Assembly: GCA_017965685.1 (NCBI GenBank)
Contig: JAGCPM010000216.1
Span: 1 to 11,991 of the forward strand
Direction of reading: 5' to 3'
Length of the DNA stretch: 11,991 nt
DNA from: Kiritimatiellia bacterium
GTDB lineage: Bacteria > Verrucomicrobiota > Kiritimatiellia > RFP12 > UBA1067
The notes beneath the pieces are model-generated. The model did no database searches and was not told the DNA's origin. It worked only from the letters and a program-made list of their open reading frames with translations. The translations under genes were made by a program, and so were the position numbers. This document shows positions 2,051 through 11,684 of the stretch, one piece after another; position 1 is the first letter of the stretch; the number at the start of each line of letters is the position of its first letter.

Positions 2051-3406
2051 ATGAACAAGTTTCTTCTGTACTTTTCTATCGTCGCGTCGATCGGCGGGTT
2101 TCTGTTCGGATTCGATTCCGGCGTCATCTCCGGCGCCGAAAAGGCGATCCAGGCGGAGTTCGCCCTTGACGCGTTTTGGCACGGGCTTATCGTCTCCGTC
2201 GCGTTAATCGGTACGCTCTTCGGCGTGTTCACGGCGGGGAAGCCGAGCGACCTTTTCGGACGCCGCCCAACATTGTGGGCGATGGCGATTCTCTTCCTTG
2301 TATCCGCTCTTGGCTGTGCATTCACTCCAATGGACGCAATTATCGGTCCCCACGCGCTCGGCTGGTTCCGGTTCATCGGCGGCCTAGCCATCGGCGGCGT
2401 TTCGGTTGTCGTGCCGCTTTACATTGTCGAGATTGCGCCCGGAAAGTGGCGCGGACTTCTTGTCGGGCTCAACCAGTTCAACATAGTTTTCGGCATCCTT
2501 GCGAGCTATGTGACAAACTATCTTGTCGCGTGCTATATGCCAGGCTTCGATCCGCGCATCGTATGGCGTGTGATGCTCGGCGTAGAGTGCTTTCCGATTG
2601 TCGTGTTCATGCTCCTGCTTGCCACGATACCGGAATCCCCGCGCTGGCTTGTGCGCGTCGGCCGCATAGCGGATGCGGCAGCCGTTTTGGCCCGCGTTGG
2701 GTGCGATAAAGTCTCTGAGACGGTCGAGGAGATAAAGGCATCGCTCCTTGCGGCCGCCAACGGCGCGGACGTGCCGCTTTTCCAGCGGAGGTTCTTCAAG
2801 CCGATACTGCTTGCGTTTTTCATCGCCTTCTTCAACCAGATAAGCGGCATCAACGCGATCAACTACTATGCGCCGCGCATCTTCCAGATGATATTCGGCG
2901 ATGGGTCGTCTCTCGCTGCGCTGGCTGGTACGATGGGCATGGGGCTGGTCAACCTCGTATTCACTGCGCTCGCTTTTGCGGTGATAGACAAGGTCGGACG
3001 CCGCATCCTGATTATGATAGGCGCAGTCGCGATGATTGTCGCACACTCGCTTGTCGCCTGGCAGCTGTCGCTTCAGTCGCCCAACTCGACAATCGCCGTC
3101 ATCGGCATCTTCGGGTTCATTGCGGCTTTCGCGATGTCGTCGGGAGCGTGCCTGTGGGTCTATGTCTCCGAGGTTTTTCCGAACACGGTCCGCGCCAAGG
3201 GGCAGGCCTTTGGATGTTTCACGCACTGGTTCCTTTGCACTATTATCAGCTGGACGTTCCCGATGGCGGCTGAGCGCGCCGGATCGTGGACCTTTGCGTT
3301 TTTCGCCGCAATGATGGCCTGCCAGTTTGCATGGGCGTTCTTCTTCATGCCAGAGACGAAGGGTGGCACGATAGAGGATATTGAAAGGAGGCTTGGAATA
3401 TCATGA
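2051..3406 (+). CDS. Sugar porter family MFS transporter (proton:sugar symporter)
   Basis: This 451-residue inner-membrane protein has the marks of the sugar porter branch of the major facilitator superfamily (XylE/AraE/GLUT type) and should import a monosaccharide with protons. In order: TM1 with GFLFGFDSGVISGA (16-29), the loop motif DLFGRR (67-72), PLYIVEIAPGKWRG (122-135), PESPRWL (194-200), the sugar-binding TM7 signature NQISGINAINYYAP (262-275), DKVGRR (313-318), the SEVFPNTVRAKG motif, and a terminal PETKGG near 434. Length is close to the usual 450-490 residues. The start ATG has AAGG at 2037-2040, ten bases upstream. Its stop overlaps the next start (ATGA at 3403-3406), so it is coupled to the glycyl radical enzyme. 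The exact sugar cannot be read from sequence; the neighbouring alpha-galactosidase-like gene makes galactose, or a hexose or pentose freed with it, plausible. Confidence 0.93.
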   Translation: MNKFLLYFSIVASIGGFLFGFDSGVISGAEKAIQAEFALDAFWHGLIVSVALIGTLFGVFTAGKPSDLFGRRPTLWAMAILFLVSALGCAFTPMDAIIGPHALGWFRFIGGLAIGGVSVVVPLYIVEIAPGKWRGLLVGLNQFNIVFGILASYVTNYLVACYMPGFDPRIVWRVMLGVECFPIVVFMLLLATIPESPRWLVRVGRIADAAAVLARVGCDKVSETVEEIKASLLAAANGADVPLFQRRFFKPILLAFFIAFFNQISGINAINYYAPRIFQMIFGDGSSLAALAGTMGMGLVNLVFTALAFAVIDKVGRRILIMIGAVAMIVAHSLVAWQLSLQSPNSTIAVIGIFGFIAAFAMSSGACLWVYVSEVFPNTVRAKGQAFGCFTHWFLCTIISWTFPMAAERAGSWTFAFFAAMMACQFAWAFFFMPETKGGTIEDIERRLGIS

Positions 3407-5490
3407 CGGAGAGGATTAAATCGCTGCTCGATCGCATATTTGACAAGGAGCAGGCGAAGTTCCGCCGCGACGTGGACTGGAAACCGCTTCTCGACCGGTT
3501 AATCGCCGATGGCATAGGCGATGAAGCGCGTGCGCGCATCGGCCTCGAGGAAATGCTCAAGGCGGAGACTCCCGCCTTCATGGACGGCGAGCGCCTTGCA
3601 TTCCTTCGCACCGTGCGAGAGATTCCCGACCTTCATTCCGATGCCGAAATGGATGCGCGCCGTGCTGCGGGAACCGCGTTTGGCGAGAAGGGCGTGGTAT
3701 TCAACCTGACTGCCGACTTCGCGCCGACGATACGCGACGGACTTGGTTCGCGGCTTTCCGAAATGGAAGAGCGGCTTGCGCAATGCCGTGCAGAAGGCGA
3801 CGCCGCGGGAATTGAGTTCCTGGAGAACGCGATTCTCTCCGCAAAGGCCGTGCTGGAGCTTGCGGAGCGCTACCGTGCCGAGGCCGAAAAGCGCGGACTT
3901 GACGATATTGCAGCGACGCTTGCGCAGGTGCCGCGAAAAGGAGCACGCACGTTCCACGAGGCATTGCAGTCGCTTCGCATTCTGCACTACGCCATGTGGT
4001 GCGAGGGAGAGTACCATTGCGGTCTCGGGCGCATCGACCAGTATCTCTATCCCTACTACGAAGCGGATGCCAAGTCTAGCCGTCTCACGGAGGCGGCGGC
4101 TCTTGAGGAGCTTGAGGAGTTTTTCATCGCGTGCAACCGGGATAGCGACCTATACATCGGAATACAGCAGGGCGACAACGGCCAGTCCGTCATGCTGGGC
4201 GGCGTCACTCGCGACGGAAAGAGGGCGTTCAACGCGCTGTCGCGGCTTTGCCTAAAGGCTTGCGGCGAACTGAAGCTTGTCGATCCGAAAATCATTCTGC
4301 GCGTTGATAAATCCACTCCGCTTGAAATATACGAACTTGGCACGGAGCTTACGGCGAAGGGCCTCGGCTTTCCGCAGTACGCGAACGACGACGTGGTGAT
4401 ACCGGCGCTTCAAAGATGGGGCTACGAGCTGGAGGATGCACGCGACTATTCCGTCGCCGCGTGCTGGGAGTTCTTGATTCCCGGATGCGGCATGGACATC
4501 AACAACATCGATGCCGTGAGTTTCGTCGGGTCGCTTGATGCGACGTTGCGAAACCTCGCACAGAGGTGCAAAGACGCACAGGACGGGTTGAAGTACGAGG
4601 CTGTGGAGAAGGGGTTTCTTGCTGAAATACAGCGCCGGGCGGATGAGCTTGTCGAGAAGTACAAACATGTTGAAATACTGCCAGGTCCTTTTGTGTCGGT
4701 CATATCGCGAGGTTGCATCGGGAAAGCCCGCGATATCTCGAAAGGCGCGAAGTACAACAATTTCGGGATACACGGCACCGGCATTGCCGTGGCGGTGGAT
4801 TCGCTCGCTTCCGTCAAGGAACTCGTCTTCGAGAAGAAACTCGTTTCTCTTTCCGTGCTTGTCTCGCTTCTCGATACCGATTTTGCCGGTCGCCCCGATG
4901 TGCTGGTCGCGGCGAAGGCCGCTCCGAAGATGGGCAACGCCGATCCGCGCGCGGATGAAATCGCCAAGCGCGTGATTGGATTCTGGGGCCGCGTTTTCGA
5001 CGGCAAGCGCAATGACAGGGGCGGGATATTTCGTCCCGGCACGGGGAGTGCCATGTACTACATCTGGCATGCGCGGGAGGTGCCGGCGTCGCCAAGCGGG
5101 CGTCGCAGGGGCGAGCCTCTTTCCGCAAACTGGGCGCCGTCGCTTGATGTTCCTGTCAAAGGACCGGTGAGCGTGGTAAGGTCCTTCACCGAACCGGACC
5201 TCGGCCCTGTCTGCAATGGCGGGCCTCTCACGATAGAGATACACGATTCTGCATTCGCGATGTCTGATGGCGTCTCCAAGGTTGCGCATCTTGTGAAGTT
5301 CTTCATCGAGCGCGGCGGACACCAGATGCAGATAAACACGATCAACCGCGAGACGCTCAAGGATGCACAGAAGCATCCCGAGCGACATCGCCACCTCATT
5401 GTCCGAGTCTGGGGCTGGAGCGGTTATTTCGTGGAGCTCGACAGGGAATATCAGGATCAGATCATCAAGAGAATGGAGCTTGTCGCGTGA
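3403..5490 (+). CDS. Divergent glycyl radical enzyme (pyruvate formate-lyase-like superfamily)
   Basis: This 695-residue cytoplasmic protein belongs to the glycyl radical enzyme superfamily, in which a C-terminal glycyl radical makes a thiyl radical on an active-site cysteine. The likely thiyl cysteine is Cys354 in YSVAACWEF, with Glu356 two residues on, as in C-x-E eliminases (glycerol/propanediol dehydratase, choline lyase, hydroxyproline dehydratase). True pyruvate formate-lyase has Cys-Cys instead. The glycyl motif RVWGWSGYF puts the radical on Gly671, 24 residues from the C terminus, the usual distance. The protein is shorter than common members (about 760-850) and both motifs are unusual: ACWE where GCVEP is common, and WGWSG where a G-Y-S/T-A-like form is common. 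AAGGAGG at 3385-3391 precedes the ATG, which overlaps the porter stop; its own stop overlaps the activase GTG start. Superfamily membership is firm. The substrate is unknown; a sugar-derived diol or sugar acid is inferred from the operon. Confidence 0.9.
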   Translation: MTERIKSLLDRIFDKEQAKFRRDVDWKPLLDRLIADGIGDEARARIGLEEMLKAETPAFMDGERLAFLRTVREIPDLHSDAEMDARRAAGTAFGEKGVVFNLTADFAPTIRDGLGSRLSEMEERLAQCRAEGDAAGIEFLENAILSAKAVLELAERYRAEAEKRGLDDIAATLAQVPRKGARTFHEALQSLRILHYAMWCEGEYHCGLGRIDQYLYPYYEADAKSSRLTEAAALEELEEFFIACNRDSDLYIGIQQGDNGQSVMLGGVTRDGKRAFNALSRLCLKACGELKLVDPKIILRVDKSTPLEIYELGTELTAKGLGFPQYANDDVVIPALQRWGYELEDARDYSVAACWEFLIPGCGMDINNIDAVSFVGSLDATLRNLAQRCKDAQDGLKYEAVEKGFLAEIQRRADELVEKYKHVEILPGPFVSVISRGCIGKARDISKGAKYNNFGIHGTGIAVAVDSLASVKELVFEKKLVSLSVLVSLLDTDFAGRPDVLVAAKAAPKMGNADPRADEIAKRVIGFWGRVFDGKRNDRGGIFRPGTGSAMYYIWHAREVPASPSGRRRGEPLSANWAPSLDVPVKGPVSVVRSFTEPDLGPVCNGGPLTIEIHDSAFAMSDGVSKVAHLVKFFIERGGHQMQINTINRETLKDAQKHPERHRHLIVRVWGWSGYFVELDREYQDQIIKRMELVA

Positions 5491-6173
5491 CGGGGCGTGT
5501 TTTCGAGACAAGGGAGTTTACTCTTCATGACGGGCCGGGCGTGAGGACGACCGTGTTTATGAAGGGGTGCCCGCTTCGCTGTGCGTGGTGCCACAATCCA
5601 GAGGGACAGTCGTTCGAGATCGAGACGATGATTCGCAAGAATGGTGACAAGACCTTATGCGGACGGGACTGGACGGCGCATGCACTTGCGGACGAACTCC
5701 TCAAGAACGCCGACATGATGGCGCAATCCGGCGGCGGTGTCACTTTTTCCGGCGGCGAGCCGCTTGCCCAGCCGGACTTCCTGCGCGAAATCGTTTCTCT
5801 CCTCAAGGAAAGCGGTGTACATGGCGCGATCGAAACGAGCGGATATGCTCCGGCTGTGGTATATCGTGACATAATTCCCCGGTTCGATTTCGTCTATCAA
5901 GACGTGAAACTTCTTGACGCGGCGGCGTTCCGCCGCTGGACAGGAGGCAGTCTTTCGGTTGTGCTGGAAAATATAGCGTATTTGCGCGGGTGCGGCGTGC
6001 CGTTCGCCTTCCGGGTTCCTCTGATTCCCGGCGTGAACGATGATGCCGCGAGCCGTGCCGCCTTTGCGGCGTTTGCCGACGGGTGCAAGGTGGAATATTT
6101 GCCGTACAACACGGCGGCGGGCGCGAAGTATCCGTTGCTGGGTCGTGCGTATCCAATGGGAGCAATCACATGA
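5487..6173 (+). CDS. Glycyl radical enzyme activase (radical SAM)
   Basis: This 228-residue radical SAM enzyme should abstract a hydrogen from Gly671 of the GRE encoded just upstream. The N terminus has FTLHDGPGVRTTVFMKGCP, typical of activases, and the [4Fe-4S] motif CPLRCAWC (Cys28, Cys32, Cys35). The SAM-binding segment GGGVTFSGGEP lies at 82-92, and VYQDVKLLD and RVPLIPGVNDD follow in the expected order. Only one cysteine (Cys58) lies between the cluster motif and the SAM motif, so the 8Fe ferredoxin-like insert of many eliminase activases is missing and the architecture is the short, pyruvate formate-lyase-activase type. The start is GTG at 5487, overlapping the GRE stop as GTGA, with GGAG at 5475-5478 eight bases upstream. 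The ORF ends inside the next gene's start (ATGA). Adjacent, translationally coupled placement strongly supports a dedicated pair. Confidence 0.95.
   Translation: MTGRVFETREFTLHDGPGVRTTVFMKGCPLRCAWCHNPEGQSFEIETMIRKNGDKTLCGRDWTAHALADELLKNADMMAQSGGGVTFSGGEPLAQPDFLREIVSLLKESGVHGAIETSGYAPAVVYRDIIPRFDFVYQDVKLLDAAAFRRWTGGSLSVVLENIAYLRGCGVPFAFRVPLIPGVNDDAASRAAFAAFADGCKVEYLPYNTAAGAKYPLLGRAYPMGAIT
6158..6162 (+). promoter_or_regulatory. Ribosome binding site that decides the GH36 start
   Basis: GGGAG lies seven bases before the ATG at 6170. That ATG opens a signal peptide and overlaps the activase stop. A longer reading from ATG 6083 would put 29 non-signal residues ahead of the signal peptide, so the 6170 start is preferred. 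Confidence 0.7.
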
Positions 6174-8401
6174 AATACACATTGGCGGTTTGCGTGGCGT
6201 TTGCGAGCTTGGCCGCTTGCGCCGATACGGAGTTTGTCGAGGGAAGCTGGAAAGTGGCTTTCGCCGACGAAAACGCTTGTCTCATTCTTTCGCACAAGGA
6301 GGGGAACGCCGAGTTATCTGGCAACCTGTCGTTCACGGGTCCTGCCGAAGTCACCGGTGCGGGAGTCGGAAATGACGAGTCCATGGCGAAGTGGCGCATC
6401 ACATCTTCGCGCGACGGATTCCCCAATCGGCTCGCGCTTGTCGATACACGCGACAATGTGAACGGCTACATCGCGTTCCAGTCCGACGGAGAGGGCATCA
6501 CACTGCTCGTTTACCACCGCACGGCGTTCGCGTACCCGGGCGTTCTCTCGTTCGGCGGAACCCTTCGCTATCGCGGCGACGCATATCCTTGCTCGTTGAC
6601 GCCCAAGGCCGGCGACAGGGTCTTGTCCGTAAAGAGCGGCGATGCCATCTCCCTTGACGATGATGCGCTTTTCTCTCCTTCTACGGACGAGGCGCTTGCG
6701 TTCAAGGGGGTTAAGTTGAAATCAGATGGCGGAATGTCGCTGGCGTCGGCGCGTCTTGCAATCGATGATGCGACGCGGAACTCGTTCTCGTTCAAGATTG
6801 TCAAGGATTGGTACAAGACGCGCTGGGTGCCTAACTGGCGCGCCCCGAACCGTAGCCGTTCGCCTCATGCGCCCACGGGCTGGCTCAGTTGGAACACATA
6901 CTTCGACACCGCCGGCTCAAAGGAGAACCTTGACGAAGCGCGTTTCGCCGCGAAACTGTTCAAGCCGTTCGGCATGGAATTCTGGAATATCGAATCATGG
7001 CAGGACAACTCGCCGAAACTTCCCGTATCGAATTTCCACAATATGGACCTCGAGACCTACAAGGTGCAGTTCCCGGAGGGAATGAAATGGCTCGCGGACG
7101 AAATAAGGGAGCTCGGCTTTAGGCCGGGACTCTGGATGGCGCCATATGGAACGGGCAACGATGATTTCTACGCGCGGCACAAAAACTGGTTTCTGCATGG
7201 CCGGGACGGCAAGCCGGTTCGCTCGTGGAACGGAAAGTACACGCTCGACCCGACCGCGCCCGGCGCGCTGGAGCATCTGACTTCGATATTCGACAAGGCC
7301 TCGCACGAGTGGGGGTATGAGTTCTTCAAGATCGACGGGATGTCGGGCCGCAACCACGGCTACTCGGCCCATCTTTACGAACGGCCCGAGATCCGCGCGC
7401 TCATGCACGACCCGAAATGCCCCAACCCGTTCGAGCGCACCGTAGCCGCGTACAGGAAGGGGATTGGCGAAGACCGCGTCTTCCTCGCCTGCCAGGGGCA
7501 TTTCACCGGTGCGGAGGCGGGATATGCCGATGCAAGCCGCACGGGCGCGGATATCGTGCATCCAAACGAGCCTGTAAAGTGGGAGAATATTCTCCTTCAG
7601 GCGAGATGCACGGTGAACCAGTTCTTTGCACACTCAAACGTGTTCTGGTCGGACCCGGACTGCATGCTTGTCTCCCAAAACGCTCTCGCGCGCGAACAGG
7701 CGCAGGTCGAGACGACGGTCGTTGCGCTCCCGGGGCAGCAGACTTTCGCCGGCGACAAGCTCGCGGAACTTGCACTCGACCGCGTAAAGCTGATCCAGCA
7801 GGCGCTGCCTGTGTGTCCGACGCGTCCGGGAAAACTCTATCCGATGTTCGGGCATTTACCCGTATGGGATCTTCACGTATCGCGTCCTTTTGGCGAGTGG
7901 CACATTGTAGCGCTCTTCAACTGGAGCGACGAGGAGAGGGAGATAGCCGTGGACTGGCAAGAAATAGGCGAGAGCGGCGAGCGCGTCTTCGTAGTGTGGG
8001 AATTCTGGACCGATGCCTACTTTGGAGAGAGAAAGGGCTCTCTCGCCGCGGCTGTTCCGCCGCGCGCTGTGCGGCTCTTTGCGCTTCAACCGTATGCCGG
8101 CCACCCGCAGTTCCTCACGAGCGATCGCCATCTGACGCAGGGCGCCGTTGGGCTTTCGGACCAGAAGTGGGAGGGCTCGCGCCTTGACGCAAAAATTGCC
8201 GCAGTGGGCGGTTTTCCCCAGGTCGTGCGGTTTGCCGTGCCCGAGGAATGGAAGATTGAAGGCGCAACGGCTGACGGTGCGGATGTGAAGACAAAAGAGG
8301 AGTACGGCGGAAGGGTGGTGTCAGTGGAGCTTGAAGTTCCACGCTCGGGCGTCGTAGACCTTTGCCTTGATTTTTCATCAAACAAGGAGACACGCAAATG
8401 A
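6170..8401 (+). CDS. Secreted GH36-like alpha-galactosidase (clan GH-D)
   Basis: This 743-residue exported glycoside hydrolase probably removes alpha-linked galactose or a similar sugar by a retaining mechanism. A signal peptide (MKYTLAVCVAFASLAACA) opens the protein. An N-terminal beta-rich domain runs to about 235, then the TIM barrel starts with APTGWLSWNTYF, matching the GWxSW start of GH36. The KxD motif FFKIDGM gives Asp389 as likely nucleophile, and SRTGADI gives Asp461 as likely acid/base. A C-terminal beta-domain contains TSDRHLTQG, seen in related planctomycete and verrucomicrobial hydrolases. LAAC at 14-17 could be a lipobox or part of an A-x-A signal peptidase I site, so it may be a lipoprotein or a soluble periplasmic enzyme. 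It overlaps both neighbours by ATGA. Clan is well supported; alpha-galactosidase versus alpha-N-acetylgalactosaminidase or another GH-D activity cannot be settled here. Confidence 0.85.
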   Translation: MKYTLAVCVAFASLAACADTEFVEGSWKVAFADENACLILSHKEGNAELSGNLSFTGPAEVTGAGVGNDESMAKWRITSSRDGFPNRLALVDTRDNVNGYIAFQSDGEGITLLVYHRTAFAYPGVLSFGGTLRYRGDAYPCSLTPKAGDRVLSVKSGDAISLDDDALFSPSTDEALAFKGVKLKSDGGMSLASARLAIDDATRNSFSFKIVKDWYKTRWVPNWRAPNRSRSPHAPTGWLSWNTYFDTAGSKENLDEARFAAKLFKPFGMEFWNIESWQDNSPKLPVSNFHNMDLETYKVQFPEGMKWLADEIRELGFRPGLWMAPYGTGNDDFYARHKNWFLHGRDGKPVRSWNGKYTLDPTAPGALEHLTSIFDKASHEWGYEFFKIDGMSGRNHGYSAHLYERPEIRALMHDPKCPNPFERTVAAYRKGIGEDRVFLACQGHFTGAEAGYADASRTGADIVHPNEPVKWENILLQARCTVNQFFAHSNVFWSDPDCMLVSQNALAREQAQVETTVVALPGQQTFAGDKLAELALDRVKLIQQALPVCPTRPGKLYPMFGHLPVWDLHVSRPFGEWHIVALFNWSDEEREIAVDWQEIGESGERVFVVWEFWTDAYFGERKGSLAAAVPPRAVRLFALQPYAGHPQFLTSDRHLTQGAVGLSDQKWEGSRLDAKIAAVGGFPQVVRFAVPEEWKIEGATADGADVKTKEEYGGRVVSVELEVPRSGVVDLCLDFSSNKETRK

Positions 8402-9795
8402 AAACACGAATCGGTCGTATCGCGCCAGTCGCGCTTGTTGCGGTGGCGTGTCACATCCCGCTTTTTGCGGGACTTCTGGATAACGCATGGATAAAGGGCG
8501 TCACTGACAAGGATCCTCTCTCCTACGCCTGCGGAGAGGAGATTGTGTTCAAGTTGACGCCGATGGGTGTCGAGGGTGAAATCCCCGAAGGCGAATACAA
8601 ACTGCAATGGGATAAGAGCGACGATTACGGTTCTCAGGAAAAAGGTGAAGTTCCGTTTACGTCAGAGCCGTTCATATACAAGACGCGTCTGGACAAGCCT
8701 GGCTTTGTGCGCTTGACGGCGTATGTAGTTGATCGGAACGGGAAGCGCGTCGAGAAGAAGTTCACCGGCGACGCTTCCACTCCGGAAGGGCGCAAGGCAA
8801 TGAACGAGTTCGAAAGGTCCAACAAGGCCGTGTTCTTCGACGGAGGGGCCGGGGCGGCCGTGGATTCGCTCGCTCTTTCGCCCGAGGGCGAGCCTGCCGA
8901 CTTCGACGAATTCTGGAAGGGCCAGTTCGCCCGGCTTGACAGAGTGCCGGTCAAGGCGGAACGCATCGAAATCGAAAGTCCAGACCCCAGAGCGCGGCGT
9001 TTCGCCGTCCGCATCGATTGCGCGGGACTCAGGCCGGTGACTGGATACCTTTCGGTTCCCAAAGCGGTGGACGAGGGCAAGAAGTTTCCGTGCCGCCTCG
9101 AAACGCACGGTTACAGCGGCGACAACTGCACGCACACGAGGCCGGAATGGACCGTACCAGGCATGATTGTTCTCAACATCAACGCGCACGGGCTGAAGCT
9201 CGAGGAGTTCGGCGCGACCGATGCTGATACCAAGGCGCTCCGCTGGGAGATACGTTCGCACGACAGGCGCTATGCGTTCGATCCTGAGCAGAACAAAGAT
9301 CCGGAAACCGCCTACTTCAACGGAATGGTGCTGAGAGTCAAGCGCGCCTTGCAGTACCTCAAGACCATAGAAGGATGGGACGGCGTGAACCTCGAAGCCA
9401 GCGGCGGCAGCCAGGGCGGGCTCCAGACGATATGGGCGGCGGGTTGCGGAGAAGGCGTGACGCTCGCAAACTCCGGAGTAACGTGGTGCTGCGACATGCC
9501 TATGAACAATGTGCGCTTGGATTGGAAGGCTGCGAGCAACGGATGGTACATCAGCTGGGTGCCGGGCATCTCCTATTACGACGCCGTGGCCTGGGCGAAA
9601 CGCATACCCGAAACCTGCCGCACCAACATCACCCGCGCAGGACTGGGCGATTACTGCTGTCCTCCGATGGGGCTGGCAAAGCTCTGGAACGCCATCCCGG
9701 GCAAAAACAAGTCCATCAAATGGGTGCAGGGGTCGCAGCACGGATACGTTCCGCCGGACTATGACGGACGCGATTTTGTGAAAGAGGTCAAGTAA
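8398..9795 (+). CDS. Secreted acetyl xylan esterase-like protein (CE7/AXE1)
   Basis: This 465-residue exported serine esterase probably removes acetyl groups from sugars or oligosaccharides. A signal peptide ends around PLFA/GLLDNAW near residue 24. An extra beta-rich N-terminal domain (about 25-140) precedes the alpha/beta hydrolase AXE1 domain, which begins near FDEFWKGQFARL. The catalytic triad is visible in CE7 order: Ser338 in GGSQGG, Asp418 in GLGDYCCPP and His448 in GSQHGY. ATG 8398 overlaps the GH36 stop and has AAGGAG at 8384-8389, eight bases upstream. Pairing with a GH36-like enzyme suggests that the natural glycan is acetylated. CE7 enzymes are often broad and also act on small acetylated sugars, so the xylan label is only a family name. 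Confidence 0.9.
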   Translation: MKTRIGRIAPVALVAVACHIPLFAGLLDNAWIKGVTDKDPLSYACGEEIVFKLTPMGVEGEIPEGEYKLQWDKSDDYGSQEKGEVPFTSEPFIYKTRLDKPGFVRLTAYVVDRNGKRVEKKFTGDASTPEGRKAMNEFERSNKAVFFDGGAGAAVDSLALSPEGEPADFDEFWKGQFARLDRVPVKAERIEIESPDPRARRFAVRIDCAGLRPVTGYLSVPKAVDEGKKFPCRLETHGYSGDNCTHTRPEWTVPGMIVLNINAHGLKLEEFGATDADTKALRWEIRSHDRRYAFDPEQNKDPETAYFNGMVLRVKRALQYLKTIEGWDGVNLEASGGSQGGLQTIWAAGCGEGVTLANSGVTWCCDMPMNNVRLDWKAASNGWYISWVPGISYYDAVAWAKRIPETCRTNITRAGLGDYCCPPMGLAKLWNAIPGKNKSIKWVQGSQHGYVPPDYDGRDFVKEVK

Positions 9796-9809
9796 TAACT
9801 AAAACTCAT

Positions 9810-9816
9810 AAGGAGG
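9810..9816 (+). promoter_or_regulatory. Strong ribosome binding site for the truncated dehydratase
   Basis: AAGGAGG, a near-perfect Shine-Dalgarno sequence, sits seven bases before ATG 9824. The nearer ATG at 9818 is only one base away and is too close to be used well. An in-frame TAA at 9809-9811 stops any longer reading upstream. Confidence 0.8.
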
Positions 9817-9823
9817 AATGCTG

Positions 9824-10462
9824 ATGAAACGTTTCGAAGGCAAGGCGGAAATCCTCATCGAGTGCCACGGCAGATTCGACGTTCCGACCGCGCTCCGCAT
9901 TTGCAATGCTCTTGAAGAGTATTCGCCGTATTGGGTCGAGGAGCCCGTCATCCCCGATACGATGCGCGCACTCGCAGACGTGAGAAGTCGCGTTCGCGTG
10001 CCGATTGCCTGCGGCGAAAGACTCTACACAACGCAGCAGATACTTGACGCGATAGAGCTTCGCTGCTGCGACTACCTTCAGCCGGATTCGTCTCATGCCG
10101 GCGGCATAACCGGGATGAAGCAGATCGCCGCAATCTGCGACGCGCACCACATTCCGTTCTGTGCGCACAATCCATCCGGCCCTGTCGCGAACGCCGTGAC
10201 GCTCGCCTTGGGCGTCTCGACGCCCGGCTACTGCATCCACGAGACGCTTTTCGACGACGTGCCGTGGCGCAAGGATGTCATCGACGAGGACGTGCGCTTT
10301 GCCGACGGGTTGATGTATCCTTCGGATCGCCCAGGCCTCGGTATCGAGCTGAATGAAGAGGCTGCGAAGGCGCATCCCAAACAGGATCACTGGCTGCGGC
10401 ACTATGTCGGCACATTGACGAACATCCGTCCGCCGGACAGCGTGAAGTACTACCACGGATGA
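9824..10462 (+). CDS. N-terminally truncated enolase-superfamily sugar acid dehydratase (galactonate dehydratase-like)
   Basis: These 212 residues match only the C-terminal barrel part of mandelate racemase/galactonate dehydratase-type enzymes, normally about 380-400 residues. The capping domain and the first barrel strands with the usual K-x-K region are missing. The sequence starts right before the third strand: ILIECHGRF, with Glu13 where Asp is expected and His15 as in the D-x-H form of galactonate dehydratase. VEEP (39-40), GERLY (Glu65), QPDSSHAGG (Asp88), AHNPSGP (His115) and IHE (Glu140) are kept, as is the C-terminal PDRPGLGIELNEEA. The family dehydrates aldonates to 2-keto-3-deoxy acids. 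A strong ribosome binding site, an in-frame stop upstream and an intact frame to the end suggest that it is translated, yet it probably cannot fold or work as a normal dehydratase. An in-frame deletion that kept the original start is the simplest explanation; a misassembly is possible. Confidence 0.8.
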   Translation: MKRFEGKAEILIECHGRFDVPTALRICNALEEYSPYWVEEPVIPDTMRALADVRSRVRVPIACGERLYTTQQILDAIELRCCDYLQPDSSHAGGITGMKQIAAICDAHHIPFCAHNPSGPVANAVTLALGVSTPGYCIHETLFDDVPWRKDVIDEDVRFADGLMYPSDRPGLGIELNEEAAKAHPKQDHWLRHYVGTLTNIRPPDSVKYYHG

Positions 10463-10463
10463 T

Positions 10464-10468
10464 AGGAG
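10464..10468 (+). promoter_or_regulatory. Ribosome binding site that decides the lactonase start
   Basis: AGGAG lies eight bases before ATG 10477. It is downstream of the alternative ATG 10459, which overlaps the dehydratase stop but has no usable Shine-Dalgarno sequence. The 10477 start gives MIVYLGCYTG, the usual opening of the family. Confidence 0.7.
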
Positions 10469-10476
10469 CATTGGCC

Positions 10477-11514
10477 ATGATCGTCTATCTCGGATGCTAT
10501 ACGGGTGAGGTGAATCCGAATGGCCTAAAGGTGCTGGAGCTTGACGAAAACTCCGGCGCAATGTCCGTTGTCGCCGAATATCCCGTCTCCAATGCGCTCT
10601 ACCAGGCGCTTTCGCCGGACGGGAAATATCTCTACTCCTGCACCGGCGAAGGAATATCCTCGTTCAGTGTCGAAGGACTGAATAAAGTCGATTCGATTGC
10701 ACTTGGGAACTGTGTCTGCCATGTTGCGGCGATGCCGGACGGCAAGCAATTGGTATTTGCCGATTACCTTGGCGGATTTGCCGGTTCCGTCGAGGTTGAG
10801 GAAGGTAAGTTCGGCAAGCTTGTCAAGCATCAGCATTCCGGCTCTGGACCGAATCTGCCGCGCCAGGACAAGGCGCACTGCCATCAAGCGATGCCGACGC
10901 CCGGCGGGAATGGCTATTGCGTGGTCGATTTGGGGCTTGACCGGCTTGTAGAGTATCCGGCGGGTCGAGTATTTAATACTTTGCCCGCTGGTGCGGGCCC
11001 GCGTCATCTTGTATTCCATCCCAACGGAAGCCTCGCGTTTCTCGTCTATGAGCTCGGCAACCTCGTCTCGTCCCTTTCTTGGTCGCCCGAAGCAGGCTTC
11101 CAGCAACTCGAGACCTGTCCAACCCTGAACGATTTCCATAGTTCCATAATTCCATATTTTAACAATTCCACAATCCCACATTCTTCTTACCTTGCGGCTG
11201 CGATTCGCTTCACGCCGGATGGAAAAGAAGTCGTCGTCTCCAATCGCGGCGAGAATTCGCTTGTCGTTTTCGGCTTCGATGAAGCGACCGGGAAGCTCGC
11301 GTTCAAGGCTCGGACGATGCTTTCGGGCAACTGGCCGCGTGACTTCATTTTTGTAAACGATACTCTTGCGCTCGTCGCCTGCGAGCGCTCTGGAGAGTTG
11401 CTCGCAATGCGCTACGACCCGTCAACCGGCGTTTTCTCGCAAATCGCCGCGCTTGGCGGCCTCCACCGTCCAGTGGCGCTTACACCCAATCCACGCACAC
11501 ACTCCTATCTTTAG
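10477..11514 (+). CDS. Beta-propeller lactonase family protein (6-phosphogluconolactonase-like)
   Basis: This 345-residue protein belongs to the seven-bladed lactonase family typified by E. coli Pgl (YbhE). It opens with MIVYLGCYTG and has repeated blade motifs such as LSPDGKYLYSCT, FHPNGSLAFLVYELG and FTPDGKEVVVSNRGENSLVVF. The family signature around the active site, HSGSGPNLPRQDKAHCHQA, places Arg129, His134 and His136 in the expected region. No signal peptide is seen, so it is probably cytoplasmic and hydrolyses a sugar lactone to the aldonate. In this operon the substrate may be an unphosphorylated lactone made by the Gfo/Idh/MocA enzyme downstream; that is inferred. A tandem array (11134-11181) widens the loop before LAAAIRFTPDG by about 16 residues. 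The gene begins 14 bases after the dehydratase stop and is the last of the operon. Confidence 0.88.
   Translation: MIVYLGCYTGEVNPNGLKVLELDENSGAMSVVAEYPVSNALYQALSPDGKYLYSCTGEGISSFSVEGLNKVDSIALGNCVCHVAAMPDGKQLVFADYLGGFAGSVEVEEGKFGKLVKHQHSGSGPNLPRQDKAHCHQAMPTPGGNGYCVVDLGLDRLVEYPAGRVFNTLPAGAGPRHLVFHPNGSLAFLVYELGNLVSSLSWSPEAGFQQLETCPTLNDFHSSIIPYFNNSTIPHSSYLAAAIRFTPDGKEVVVSNRGENSLVVFGFDEATGKLAFKARTMLSGNWPRDFIFVNDTLALVACERSGELLAMRYDPSTGVFSQIAALGGLHRPVALTPNPRTHSYL
11134..11181 (+). repeat. In-frame short tandem array, six degenerate 8-bp units
   Basis: Six consecutive 8-bp units with consensus TTCCAYAN (for example TTCCATAG, TTCCATAA, TTCCACAA) occupy exactly 48 bp of the lactonase gene. They encode residues 220-235 (FHSSIIPYFNNSTIPH). 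Forty-eight is divisible by both 8 and 3, so the array adds 16 whole codons. It is far more A/T-rich than its surroundings and sits in a loop between propeller strands. The opposite strand is also open across it. Similar NSTIPQFNNSTIP-like stretches are recalled from many environmental bacterial proteins. Confidence 0.75.
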
Positions 11515-11553: not shown

Positions 11554-11651
11554 CCCGTTTCTCATTCATGAAGCGAGTGTGCCAGAACGGCACGCTCAAG
11601 CGGGGGCTTGACAGCCTTCATCCGCAGAAACGCGAGGAGCACCTCGTTTTT
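11554..11651 (+). ncRNA. Candidate structured small RNA (about 98 nt), class unknown
   Basis: The predicted transcript runs from promoter P1 to a Rho-independent terminator and contains no convincing ORF. It can fold as a three-way junction. The closing stem pairs ATGAAG (11568-11573) with CTTCAT (11616-11621). A 9-bp hairpin pairs GAGTGTGCC (11575-11583) with GGCACGCTC (11589-11597), with one U-G pair and loop AGAAC. A short hairpin pairs AAGC (11598-11601) with GCTT (11606-11609) around GGGG. I do not recognise a known family. It could be a trans-acting small RNA, a leader of the downstream oxidoreductase, or simply the operon's 3' end. The 5' and 3' ends are inferred from the promoter and terminator. 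Confidence 0.4.
11633..11651 (+). terminator. Rho-independent terminator
   Basis: CGAGG (11633-11637) pairs with CCTCG (11642-11646) around the loop AGCA and is followed directly by TTTTT (11647-11651). The stem is short but GC-rich. It would end the candidate small RNA and any read-through from the operon, since no other hairpin terminator is seen after the lactonase stop. Confidence 0.6.
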
Positions 11652-11654
11652 CAT

Positions 11655-11684
11655 TTGACTTGCGCACGACCAAAATGATACAAT
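11655..11684 (+). promoter_or_regulatory. Sigma70-type promoter (P2) for the oxidoreductase
   Basis: TTGACT (11655-11660) and TACAAT (11679-11684) are separated by 18 bases, and TG at 11676-11677 makes an extended -10. Transcription would start near 11691, leaving a leader of about 28 bases before ATG 11719. The promoter begins right after the terminator's T-run, which marks a new transcription unit. Confidence 0.65.

Follow-up and report, generated by a model that had tools for sequence, protein, structure and literature searches.

Gene context of a distinct glycyl radical enzyme subfamily suggests direct attack on an imported plant sugar

The window analyzed here is an entire contig of 11,991 bp from a 65%-complete genome of a Kiritimatiellia bacterium. 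Gene calls combined with Pfam and TIGR profile scores identify in it a glycyl radical enzyme (GRE), an activase and the neighboring genes (Table 1); all the genes named in a preliminary description of this DNA, which placed the GRE/activase pair amid a porter, glycan enzymes, a lactonase and a dehydratase fragment, with a Gfo/Idh oxidoreductase adjacent, are indeed present. Five start-stop overlaps of the ATGA or GTGA type indicate a tight operon. The TPR-repeat gene, with 41 bp between its stop and the start of the porter gene, may be the first gene of this operon, whereas the Gfo/Idh gene is probably a separate transcription unit outside it, because a terminator-like stem and a promoter-like site precede this gene. 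For the glycosidase, the preliminary description gave the GTG at 6083 as the start, but the ATGA overlap with the activase stop favors 6170 as the probable one. The same glycosidase matches the Thermotoga maritima alpha-galactosidase with 68 bits, the activase contains the CxxxCxxC motif and lacks the 8-Cys ferredoxin-like insert, and the dehydratase fragment covers positions 40-219 of PF13378, its N-terminal domain being absent.

Table 1. Genes and sites in the window, with the profile match or other basis of each assignment
Feature	Position	Strand	Basis
TPR-repeat protein, 668 aa, 5' end lost at contig start	3..2009	+	
Sugar porter family MFS transporter, 451 aa	2051..3406	+	PF00083 345 bits
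Glycyl radical enzyme (GRE), unassigned subfamily, 695 aa	3403..5490	+	PF02901 304.8 bits, PF01228 62.2 bits
C354-W355-E356 codons (predicted thiyl Cys, acid/base Glu)	4462..4470	+	alignment invariance
Gly671 codon, predicted glycyl radical, in VRVWGWSGYF	5413..5415	+	alignment invariance
Radical-SAM activase, 228 aa	5487..6173	+	TIGR02494 209.6 bits (cut-off 174.35)
GH36/GH27-like glycosidase, 743 aa	6170..8401	+	Melibiase 27.5 bits (cut-off 27)
CE7-type acetyl esterase, 465 aa, accessory	8398..9795	+	PF05448 68.7 bits
Gluconate/galactonate-dehydratase-like enolase-superfamily C-terminal fragment, accessory	9818..10462	+	PF13378; NF040790 156.8 bits (cut-off 750)
7-bladed beta-propeller lactonase, 351 aa, accessory	10459..11514	+	PF10282 203.5 bits
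Terminator-like stem, then promoter-like site	11632-11647, then 11655-11684	+	consensus matches only
Gfo/Idh/MocA oxidoreductase, 5' part, first 91 aa, cut by contig end	11719..11991	+	PF01408

By sequence and predicted fold, the window protein belongs to the GRE superfamily. The glycyl radical loop domain scores above its cut-off of 22.2 bits, Gly671, the predicted radical site, and Cys354-Trp355-Glu356 are invariant among 54 aligned sequences (the window protein included), and the predicted structural model, with a pLDDT of 90.8, yields full-length matches to GREs, the best three being PFL2 of Archaeoglobus, PflD and glycerol dehydratase. For PFL2 of Archaeoglobus fulgidus, we know of no established physiological substrate. 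The partner activase scores above the cut-off of its family model, and an activase gene lies within four genes of the GRE at 60 of the 80 loci compared (the window and 79 relatives), none having been found near the GRE at loci L018, L020, L021 and L038. The window enzyme is the single GRE found in its own 65%-complete genome.

Many GREs have no assigned reaction, and the window enzyme stays far below the cut-off in each of its matches to curated GRE equivalog models. The best match, TIGR01774 (the PFL2/glycerol dehydratase subfamily), reaches 315.5 bits against a cut-off of 678.2, in agreement with the earlier view that this protein lies outside the characterized non-sugar GRE families. Similarly low are the scores for HypD (283 bits, cut-off 1100), CutC (239, cut-off 1050), HpsG and HpfG (249.7 and 250.8, cut-off 1000), HPAD (174.8, cut-off 1150), indoleacetate decarboxylase (180.2, cut-off 1100), NF007437 (PRK09983, named formate C-acetyltransferase, which we take to be PflD; 273.2, cut-off 1109) and pyruvate formate-lyase (TIGR01255; 54.8, cut-off 994.2), and the window protein has CWE in place of the CC of the last of these enzymes.

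On sequence grounds, this GRE represents a distinct, definable subfamily. A profile search of 146 genomes of the class, including the source genome, gave three matches of 851-1155 bits, with the rest of the matches listed at 362 bits or less, a gap that bounds the subfamily sharply. Its near-invariant motifs are NxDSDLYxGxQQGDNGQ, AACWEF, YNNxGxHG and VRVWGWS, and its members come from anaerobe genomes of several phyla, with Kiritimatiellae, Lentisphaerae, Planctomycetia, Bacteroidales, Clostridia and Treponema all represented; gut samples from goat, sheep, yak, deer, water buffalo and horse are among the sources named in the record titles. The distribution is patchy (3 of the 146 class genomes), and the same search detected no member in two other genomes of the window's genus. 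A literature search, mostly outside subscription journals, returned nothing on this subfamily or on an arabinose-acting GRE among the matches listed.

Among the solved structures, the highest sequence scores are those of glycerol dehydratase (393.7 bits) and, second, diol dehydratase (373.1 bits). The CxE motif is common to the window protein and the B12-independent glycerol/1,2-propanediol dehydratases (1r8w, 5i2a, 9rco), and dehydratase-type chemistry would be expected, although the window enzyme is about 90 residues shorter than 1r8w. This kinship favors a small-diol dehydratase, acting on glycerol, 1,2-propanediol or ethylene glycol and merely co-induced with sugar use, but several observations make such a role improbable. 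Apart from the TIGR01774 score, the positions His164, Ser282 and Asp447, presumably the glycerol-contacting residues of the Clostridium butyricum enzyme, are changed to Asn101, the variable position 206 and Asn368; there is no diol dehydrogenase or microcompartment family among the best 25 neighbor families per group; and the porter and importer are of the monosaccharide type.

Another comparison is with PflD and YbiW, of which the primary study is reportedly that of Ma et al. According to PMC12441222 and the titles of PDB entries 8id0 and 8id7, these enzymes open 1,5-anhydrohexitol 6-phosphates, so that a sugar-related GRE is not unprecedented, and the list of known GRE contexts in the preliminary description, which omitted both, was incomplete. 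In structural alignments, the window GRE is 26-28% identical to PflD and YbiW (8id0, 8id7, 8yjo); its identity to A. fulgidus PFL2 (2f3o) is 26%. Compared with PflD and YbiW, the window subfamily has N101, N368, W355 and the NxDSDLYxGxQQGDNGQ motif of its own, and the importers recognized at its loci are of the MFS or ABC type instead of a phosphotransferase system. The substrate could, then, be a rare sugar derivative, namely, an unphosphorylated anhydro-alditol or deoxy sugar arising as a by-product of glycan cleavage, with the ring opened in the way PflD and YbiW open the 6-phosphates; we regard this as unlikely.

The gene neighborhoods carry most of the functional signal. Genes at the 80 loci were called with a codon-usage caller, longest-ORF calling having produced antisense artefacts in GC-rich genomes, and the counts are based on these calls, clustering, cluster-derived profiles and individually scanned proteins. 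A sugar porter lies no more than two genes from the GRE at 31 of the 80 loci (30 of the 79 relatives), an adjacency beyond chance given that the window's own 1.41-Mb genome contains seven PF00083 matches. A GntR- or LacI-type regulator is present at 20 loci (by a profile that merges clusters c3 and c10, the weakest extra match being 1e-10), an arabinofuranosidase at 15 and a GH36-like or GH31-like glycosidase at 16, a count that merges clusters c7 and c9, several members of c7 being beta-helix/GH31 rather than GH36-like proteins. The cluster of the window glycosidase itself is also found near the GRE at L007, L012, L015, L025, L060 and L071. Altogether, at least one recognized sugar gene occurs within four genes at 51 loci and none at 29, not every neighbor having been scanned singly; for the 45 loci whose flanks both exceed 3 kb, the numbers are 33 with and 12 without a recognized sugar gene, and 23 with a porter. 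The loci that lack a recognized sugar gene within four genes include that of Oligosphaera ethanolica DSM 24202 (L036), judging by title the sole named isolate among the 79 records, and four of the five Planctomycetia/Thermoguttaceae loci. In two further members, L119 and L120, about 20 kb of sequence shows no porter of this kind.

The arrangement varies by lineage, with the porter upstream of the GRE in Kiritimatiellae and downstream in Bacteroidales, which indicates that the sugar link is not one inherited block. Individual loci contain a ribose-type ABC importer (L049; ABC permeases were assigned by cluster membership and the neighbor-family tally), GH39 and GH51 (L076), GH28 and a GH127-like protein (L069), or xylulokinase and xylose isomerase on the opposite strand (L054), and single loci with GH31, GH42, GH95, GH2 or GH5 point to other sugars as well. 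There is no recurring downstream enzyme among the best 25 neighbor families per group.

Thus, the sugar link proposed in the preliminary description is supported by the recurrence of the porter, the regulator and the glycosidases, but its sugar-oxidation argument does not extend to the relatives. The CE7 esterase recurs in 2 of the 79 (L025, L011), the lactonase in one (L048), the dehydratase in one (L015), seven genes off, and a Gfo/Idh gene no more than three genes away in at least five (L017, L021, L031, L032, L033); the lactonase, the dehydratase fragment and the Gfo/Idh gene are accessory. An oxidative pathway in which the GRE would dehydrate a sugar acid or a 2-keto-3-deoxy acid alongside the lactonase is favored by the presence of these three genes in or beside the window operon, by the position of the lactonase after the activase in L048 too and by the aldo/keto reductase next to the own-genome regulator described below. 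These counts, the promoter-like site of the Gfo/Idh gene itself and the porter family, the characterized bacterial members of which transport, to our knowledge, neutral sugars, speak against this pathway, which we consider very improbable, and there is no indication that the GRE takes over from the broken dehydratase, as had been proposed.

The window porter exceeds the cut-off of the sugar porter family model (TIGR00879, 305 bits against 237.8) but not that of the XylE-type D-xylose transporters (NF007484, 307 against 608); it is 31% identical to Escherichia coli AraE and GalP and 35% to XylE. In the porter tree, 30 GRE-linked porters form a group (support 0.93) without XylE, AraE and GalP; this group includes another porter of the same genome (C233) and, therefore, is not exclusive to GRE loci. 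The tree does not identify the sugar and was discarded as a guide to it.

The regulators are of two kinds that have a common sugar-binding domain, with a GntR-type DNA-binding domain in Kiritimatiellae and a LacI-type one in Treponema and Clostridia, so that a single GntR-type (AraR-like) regulator for all loci was rejected; the Bacteroidales have a GntR protein from a different cluster. Elsewhere, the source genome encodes a regulator that shares 80% identity with the GRE-adjacent regulator of L025. An aldo/keto reductase gene adjoins this own-genome regulator gene.

Palindromes, putative operators of a regulon, recur at some of these loci, only 7 of the 46 remote and 9 of the 34 close ones. 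They were spotted post hoc, and the genomes searched were selected for having a palindrome at the GRE locus; with this selection, the 12-mer ATTAWCGWTAAT has 12 exact sites in seven Treponema and Clostridia genomes, nine of these at the GRE locus and three within unrelated genes, and looser copies also fall inside genes at other loci. The Kiritimatiellae palindrome, AAGTTGACATGTCAW, precedes porter, GRE or glycosidase genes. Its 10 exact sites in six genomes are located upstream of the porter (three), of orthologs of the window glycosidase (two), of beta-helix/GH31 proteins (two), of a beta-helix protein (one) and of an unassigned 551-aa ORF (one), the remaining one falling at the end of the source genome's own regulator gene; one-mismatch copies are also found upstream of unassigned ORFs in L151, L152 and L153. 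The window operon contains no copy within two mismatches. This near-confinement of the palindromes to the GRE locus in the searched genomes, the patchy distribution, the pyruvate formate-lyase score and the CWE motif all argue against a housekeeping or fermentative pyruvate formate-lyase-like GRE that lies near sugar genes by accident. Although the 29 loci without a sugar gene, the four without a detected activase and the lack of a second GRE among those found in the source genome would fit such an enzyme, we consider it extremely improbable.

The reading we prefer, at slightly better than even odds (roughly 0.53), is that the subfamily uses radical C-O cleavage to initiate the anaerobic degradation of a monosaccharide that is imported and not phosphorylated; the preselection of the palindrome genomes and the lack of the porter in L119 and L120 lower our confidence. 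The sugar would be released by glycosidases, the secretion and specificity of which are predicted, and imported by the porter or, elsewhere, by an ABC importer, with the operon switched by the sugar-binding regulator. By analogy with the GRE superfamily, the activase and S-adenosylmethionine would install the radical on Gly671, from which it would move to Cys354, and Cys354 would abstract hydrogen from a hydroxyl-bearing carbon of the sugar. With Glu356 as the acid/base, the adjacent C-O bond, to a hydroxyl or the ring oxygen, would be cleaved and the product radical would regain hydrogen, the net reaction being a redox-neutral dehydration or ring opening.

The substrate is most likely to be sought among L-arabinose and other sugars of arabino or galacto configuration. 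The best single candidate appears to be L-arabinose, with D-galactose next, because L-arabinose is common to the arabinofuranosidases of Bacteroidales and Clostridia and the galacto/arabinopyranose-type glycosidases of Kiritimatiellae and Treponema. More tentatively, and with the odds against it, this could be a widespread anaerobic route in which the GRE acts directly on unphosphorylated L-arabinose or D-galactose as the sole catabolic enzyme of the regulon, one redox-neutral radical cleavage of a C-O bond replacing or bypassing the isomerase and kinase steps. The notion of arabinose isomerase as the GRE's mirror image was rejected: PF02610 scores above the cut-off in 15 of 50 GRE genomes, selected from the 79 relatives, compared with 33 of the 146 class genomes (17 and 36, respectively, at an E-value of 0.001), frequencies that are uninformative. 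Equally uninformative is the only L-ribulokinase match in the window's own 65%-complete genome (80 bits, below the cut-off). HypD-like action on arabinosylated hydroxyproline, an idea raised by the GH127 at one GRE locus, was set aside given the HypD (trans-4-hydroxy-L-proline dehydratase) score and the lack of a proline family among the listed neighbor families.

The porter, the palindromes and the glycosidases leave a small set of plant sugars as candidate substrates. If the free sugar is indeed attacked, sugar catabolism would gain a radical route of entry in addition to phosphorylation, isomerization and oxidation; even with a rarer derivative as the substrate, the gene context renders the assignment testable.

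The window spans all of contig C208 in a genome of 1.41 Mb (65% complete), most of the close relatives of which bear the name Kiritimatiellae or Verrucomicrobia. It encodes a glycyl radical enzyme (GRE) from a subfamily that is sharply bounded and patchy. The top NCBIfam match of this GRE, TIGR01774, reaches 315.5 bits where the cut-off is 678.2, and the enzyme falls far under the cut-offs of all the NCBIfam models for HypD, PRK09983, CutC, HpsG/HpfG, decarboxylases and pyruvate formate-lyase. The best Protein Data Bank match of the family profile is glycerol dehydratase (393.7 bits). When 146 genomes of the class were searched with a subfamily profile of 54 sequences, window included, chosen from 66 complete ones, three genomes, including the window's own, were positive at 1154.6, 1123.8 and 850.8 bits, and beyond these no score among the matches listed exceeded 361.6 bits, hence the sharp boundary and patchiness; the subfamily is absent in this search from two further genomes of the window's genus. 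When placed in a tree alongside PflD and YbiW of E. coli and other GREs of Kiritimatiellae, the subfamily members cluster together among the rows listed.

The genes that the preliminary description named in the window are all confirmed (table). ATGA or GTGA overlaps at five junctions (porter/GRE, GRE/activase, activase/glycosidase, glycosidase/CE7 and dehydratase piece/lactonase) fit a single operon, from which the Gfo/Idh gene is probably separate because it is preceded by a terminator-like stem followed by a promoter-like site. The dehydratase piece, of the enolase superfamily, is missing the entire N-terminal domain; its start is preceded by a ribosome-binding-like AAGGAGG and its end overlaps the lactonase start.

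Features of the window and of related GRE loci in other genomes (L numbers); L150 is a stretch of the window's own genome holding the regulator gene
Feature	Locus	Position	Strand	Basis or placement
Sugar porter	window	2051-3406	+	ORF and family matches
GRE, 695 aa	window	3403-5490	+	ORF and family matches
Activase	window	5487-6173	+	ORF and family matches
Glycosidase, GH36/GH27-like	window	6170-8401	+	ORF and family matches
CE7 esterase	window		+	ORF and family matches
Dehydratase piece, C-terminal	window	9818-10462	+	ORF and family matches
Lactonase	window		+	ORF and family matches
Gfo/Idh gene, start	window		+	ORF and family matches
163-aa protein matching ureidoglycolate lyase and DUF4867	L049	8628-9119		between sugar ABC genes and activase
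Barnase-type ribonuclease and protein matching barstar and nitroreductase	L020	6708-7957		right behind GRE
Aldo/keto reductase	L150	2821-3813		immediately before sugar regulator
TTGACATGTCAA, ≤1 mismatch	L006, L007, L010, L071			before porter
TTGACATGTCAA, ≤1 mismatch	L009			before GRE
TTGACATGTCAA, ≤1 mismatch	L025			before glycosidase
TTGACATGTCAA, ≤1 mismatch	L045			before beta-helix/GH31 protein
TTGACATGTCAA, ≤1 mismatch	L002, L044, L045			before unassigned genes

From 99 matched stretches, 86 of them confirmed, the best 80 were kept. This gave 79 related loci, which belong to Kiritimatiellae, Lentisphaerae, Planctomycetia, Bacteroidales, Clostridia, Bacilli, Treponema and one Raymondbacteria genome; the window brings the number to 80. 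Within four genes of the GRE, these 80 loci encode an activase in 60 cases, a porter in 31, a regulator in 20, a GH36-like or GH31-like glycosidase in 16, an arabinofuranosidase of the GH51 or GH127 type in 15 and sugar ABC genes in 4; at least one sugar gene is present in 51 loci and none in 29. If only the 45 loci flanked by over 3 kb on each side are counted, 33 have a sugar gene, 23 a porter and 37 an activase. The recurrence of sugar genes anticipated from the window alone thus holds for the porter and the glycosidase, but not for the other neighbors: the lactonase and the dehydratase piece each accompany the GRE in 1 of the 79 relatives, CE7 in 2 and Gfo/Idh in at least 5, and these four are accessory. 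The loci lacking sugar genes include that of Oligosphaera ethanolica, four of the five from Planctomycetia/Thermoguttaceae and 11 among the 34 close ones, and no porter match is present in the ∼20 kb around two further subfamily members, L119 and L120. In 20 loci, no activase was detected close to the GRE; several of these are cut by contig ends, and one, L077, does have an activase that the gene caller missed. No activase is recognizable near the GRE in L018, L020, L021 and L038, each extending more than 4 kb on both sides, so that GRE activation may come from elsewhere. In L018, the gene directly after the GRE resembles hisA by eye.

The gene order varies by lineage: porter-GRE-activase in Kiritimatiellae; activase-GRE-porter-GH51 in Bacteroidales, with GH127 adjoining in several; GH39-GH51-GRE-activase or GH28-regulator-GH127-like-GRE-activase in Clostridia, preceded by ABC-permease-like genes; and activase-GRE-regulator-glycosidase in Treponema, whose glycosidase shares 44% identity with that of the window. 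In a Lachnospiraceae genome, genes for a ribose-type binding protein and an ABC ATPase precede the 163-aa protein, a possible partner enzyme, and then activase-GRE. In L054, xylulokinase and xylose isomerase genes on the opposite strand adjoin the GRE/activase pair, with galT nearby. Five Bacteroidales loci (L051, L052, L055, L058 and L061) encode an isochorismatase-fold hydrolase after the porter and GH51-like arabinosidase, and in L030, L031 and L032, a protein of 604-649 aa, which matches no family apart from a carboxypeptidase-regulatory-like domain, lies between GRE and activase. Among the activases listed, an 8-Cys ferredoxin-like insert is missing from those of the close Kiritimatiellae group and Bacteroidales, and is whole or partial in those of Clostridia, Bacilli, Treponema, Lentisphaerae, Raymondbacteria and L030. 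Its presence or absence within one GRE subfamily largely follows lineage, the exception being L030, from a genome that is titled Kiritimatiellae and is more remote.

The regulators of both groups share a LacI-type sugar-binding domain, and their DNA-binding domain is of the GntR type in Kiritimatiellae and of the LacI type in Treponema and Clostridia; two different operators would fit these two domain types. Two palindromes are present, which, we infer, are bound by the regulators. The first, ATTAWCGWTAAT, precedes activase-GRE, regulator, importer or glycosidase genes in 7 of 46 remote loci, those 7 being from Treponema and Clostridia; looser copies also lie inside genes of other loci. Across the 7 genomes, selected for carrying the palindrome at the GRE locus, exact copies number 12, of which 9 are at the GRE locus and 3 inside unrelated genes; with the reversed control, the same genomes yield 8 places, so the three extra copies are no more than chance. 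Of the 9 places of a stricter 16-mer with at most one mismatch, 8 lie at the GRE locus; the control has 2 places.

The separate palindrome TTGACATGTCAA has, with at most one mismatch, 10 places, all intergenic, in 9 of 34 Kiritimatiellae loci (table). Exact copies of the 15-mer AAGTTGACATGTCAW stand at 10 places in 6 genomes, five selected for having it at GRE-linked genes plus the window's own; with at most two mismatches, there are 30 forward and 26 reverse matches, a minority of them inspected individually, compared with 7 and 10 for the control. At other places in the L006 genome, exact copies precede an ortholog (81% identical) of the window glycosidase and a beta-helix/GH31 protein, and a one-mismatch copy lies before an unassigned ORF, after which comes a GH42 gene; another copy lies 39 bp before the L025 porter, and one-mismatch copies precede unassigned ORFs in three further stretches (L151, L152 and L153). 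The window's own genome has one exact copy at the end of a regulator gene, the product of which is 80% identical to the regulator adjoining the GRE in L025. Even with two mismatches allowed, the window operon has no copy; its promoter may be located upstream of the contig start. The aldo/keto reductase encoded next to the own-genome regulator is a possible additional pathway enzyme.

Near the palindromes, the GRE is the only recognized catabolic enzyme, the remaining genes being those for import, regulation and glycan cleavage, so on the simplest interpretation, the GRE acts directly on the sugar being imported. The arabinofuranosidases (15 loci) and the galacto/arabinopyranose-type glycosidases of Kiritimatiellae and Treponema have L-arabinose in common, to which we assign a probability of about 0.4; D-galactose, which has the same ring stereochemistry at C2-C4, is a less probable second candidate. 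C-O cleavage could proceed by loss of the C2 hydroxyl following hydrogen removal at C1 or C3, by loss at C3 following removal at C2, or by PflD-like ring opening.

GREs acting on sugar derivatives are already known: YbiW and PflD, according to passages of PMC12441222 and Protein Data Bank titles, open the rings of 1,5-anhydroglucitol and 1,5-anhydromannitol 6-phosphates. The E. coli pflD gene adjoins phosphotransferase genes, fsaB and gldA. The present subfamily differs from PflD and YbiW in both pocket residues and import type, and the reaction it catalyzes is possibly new.
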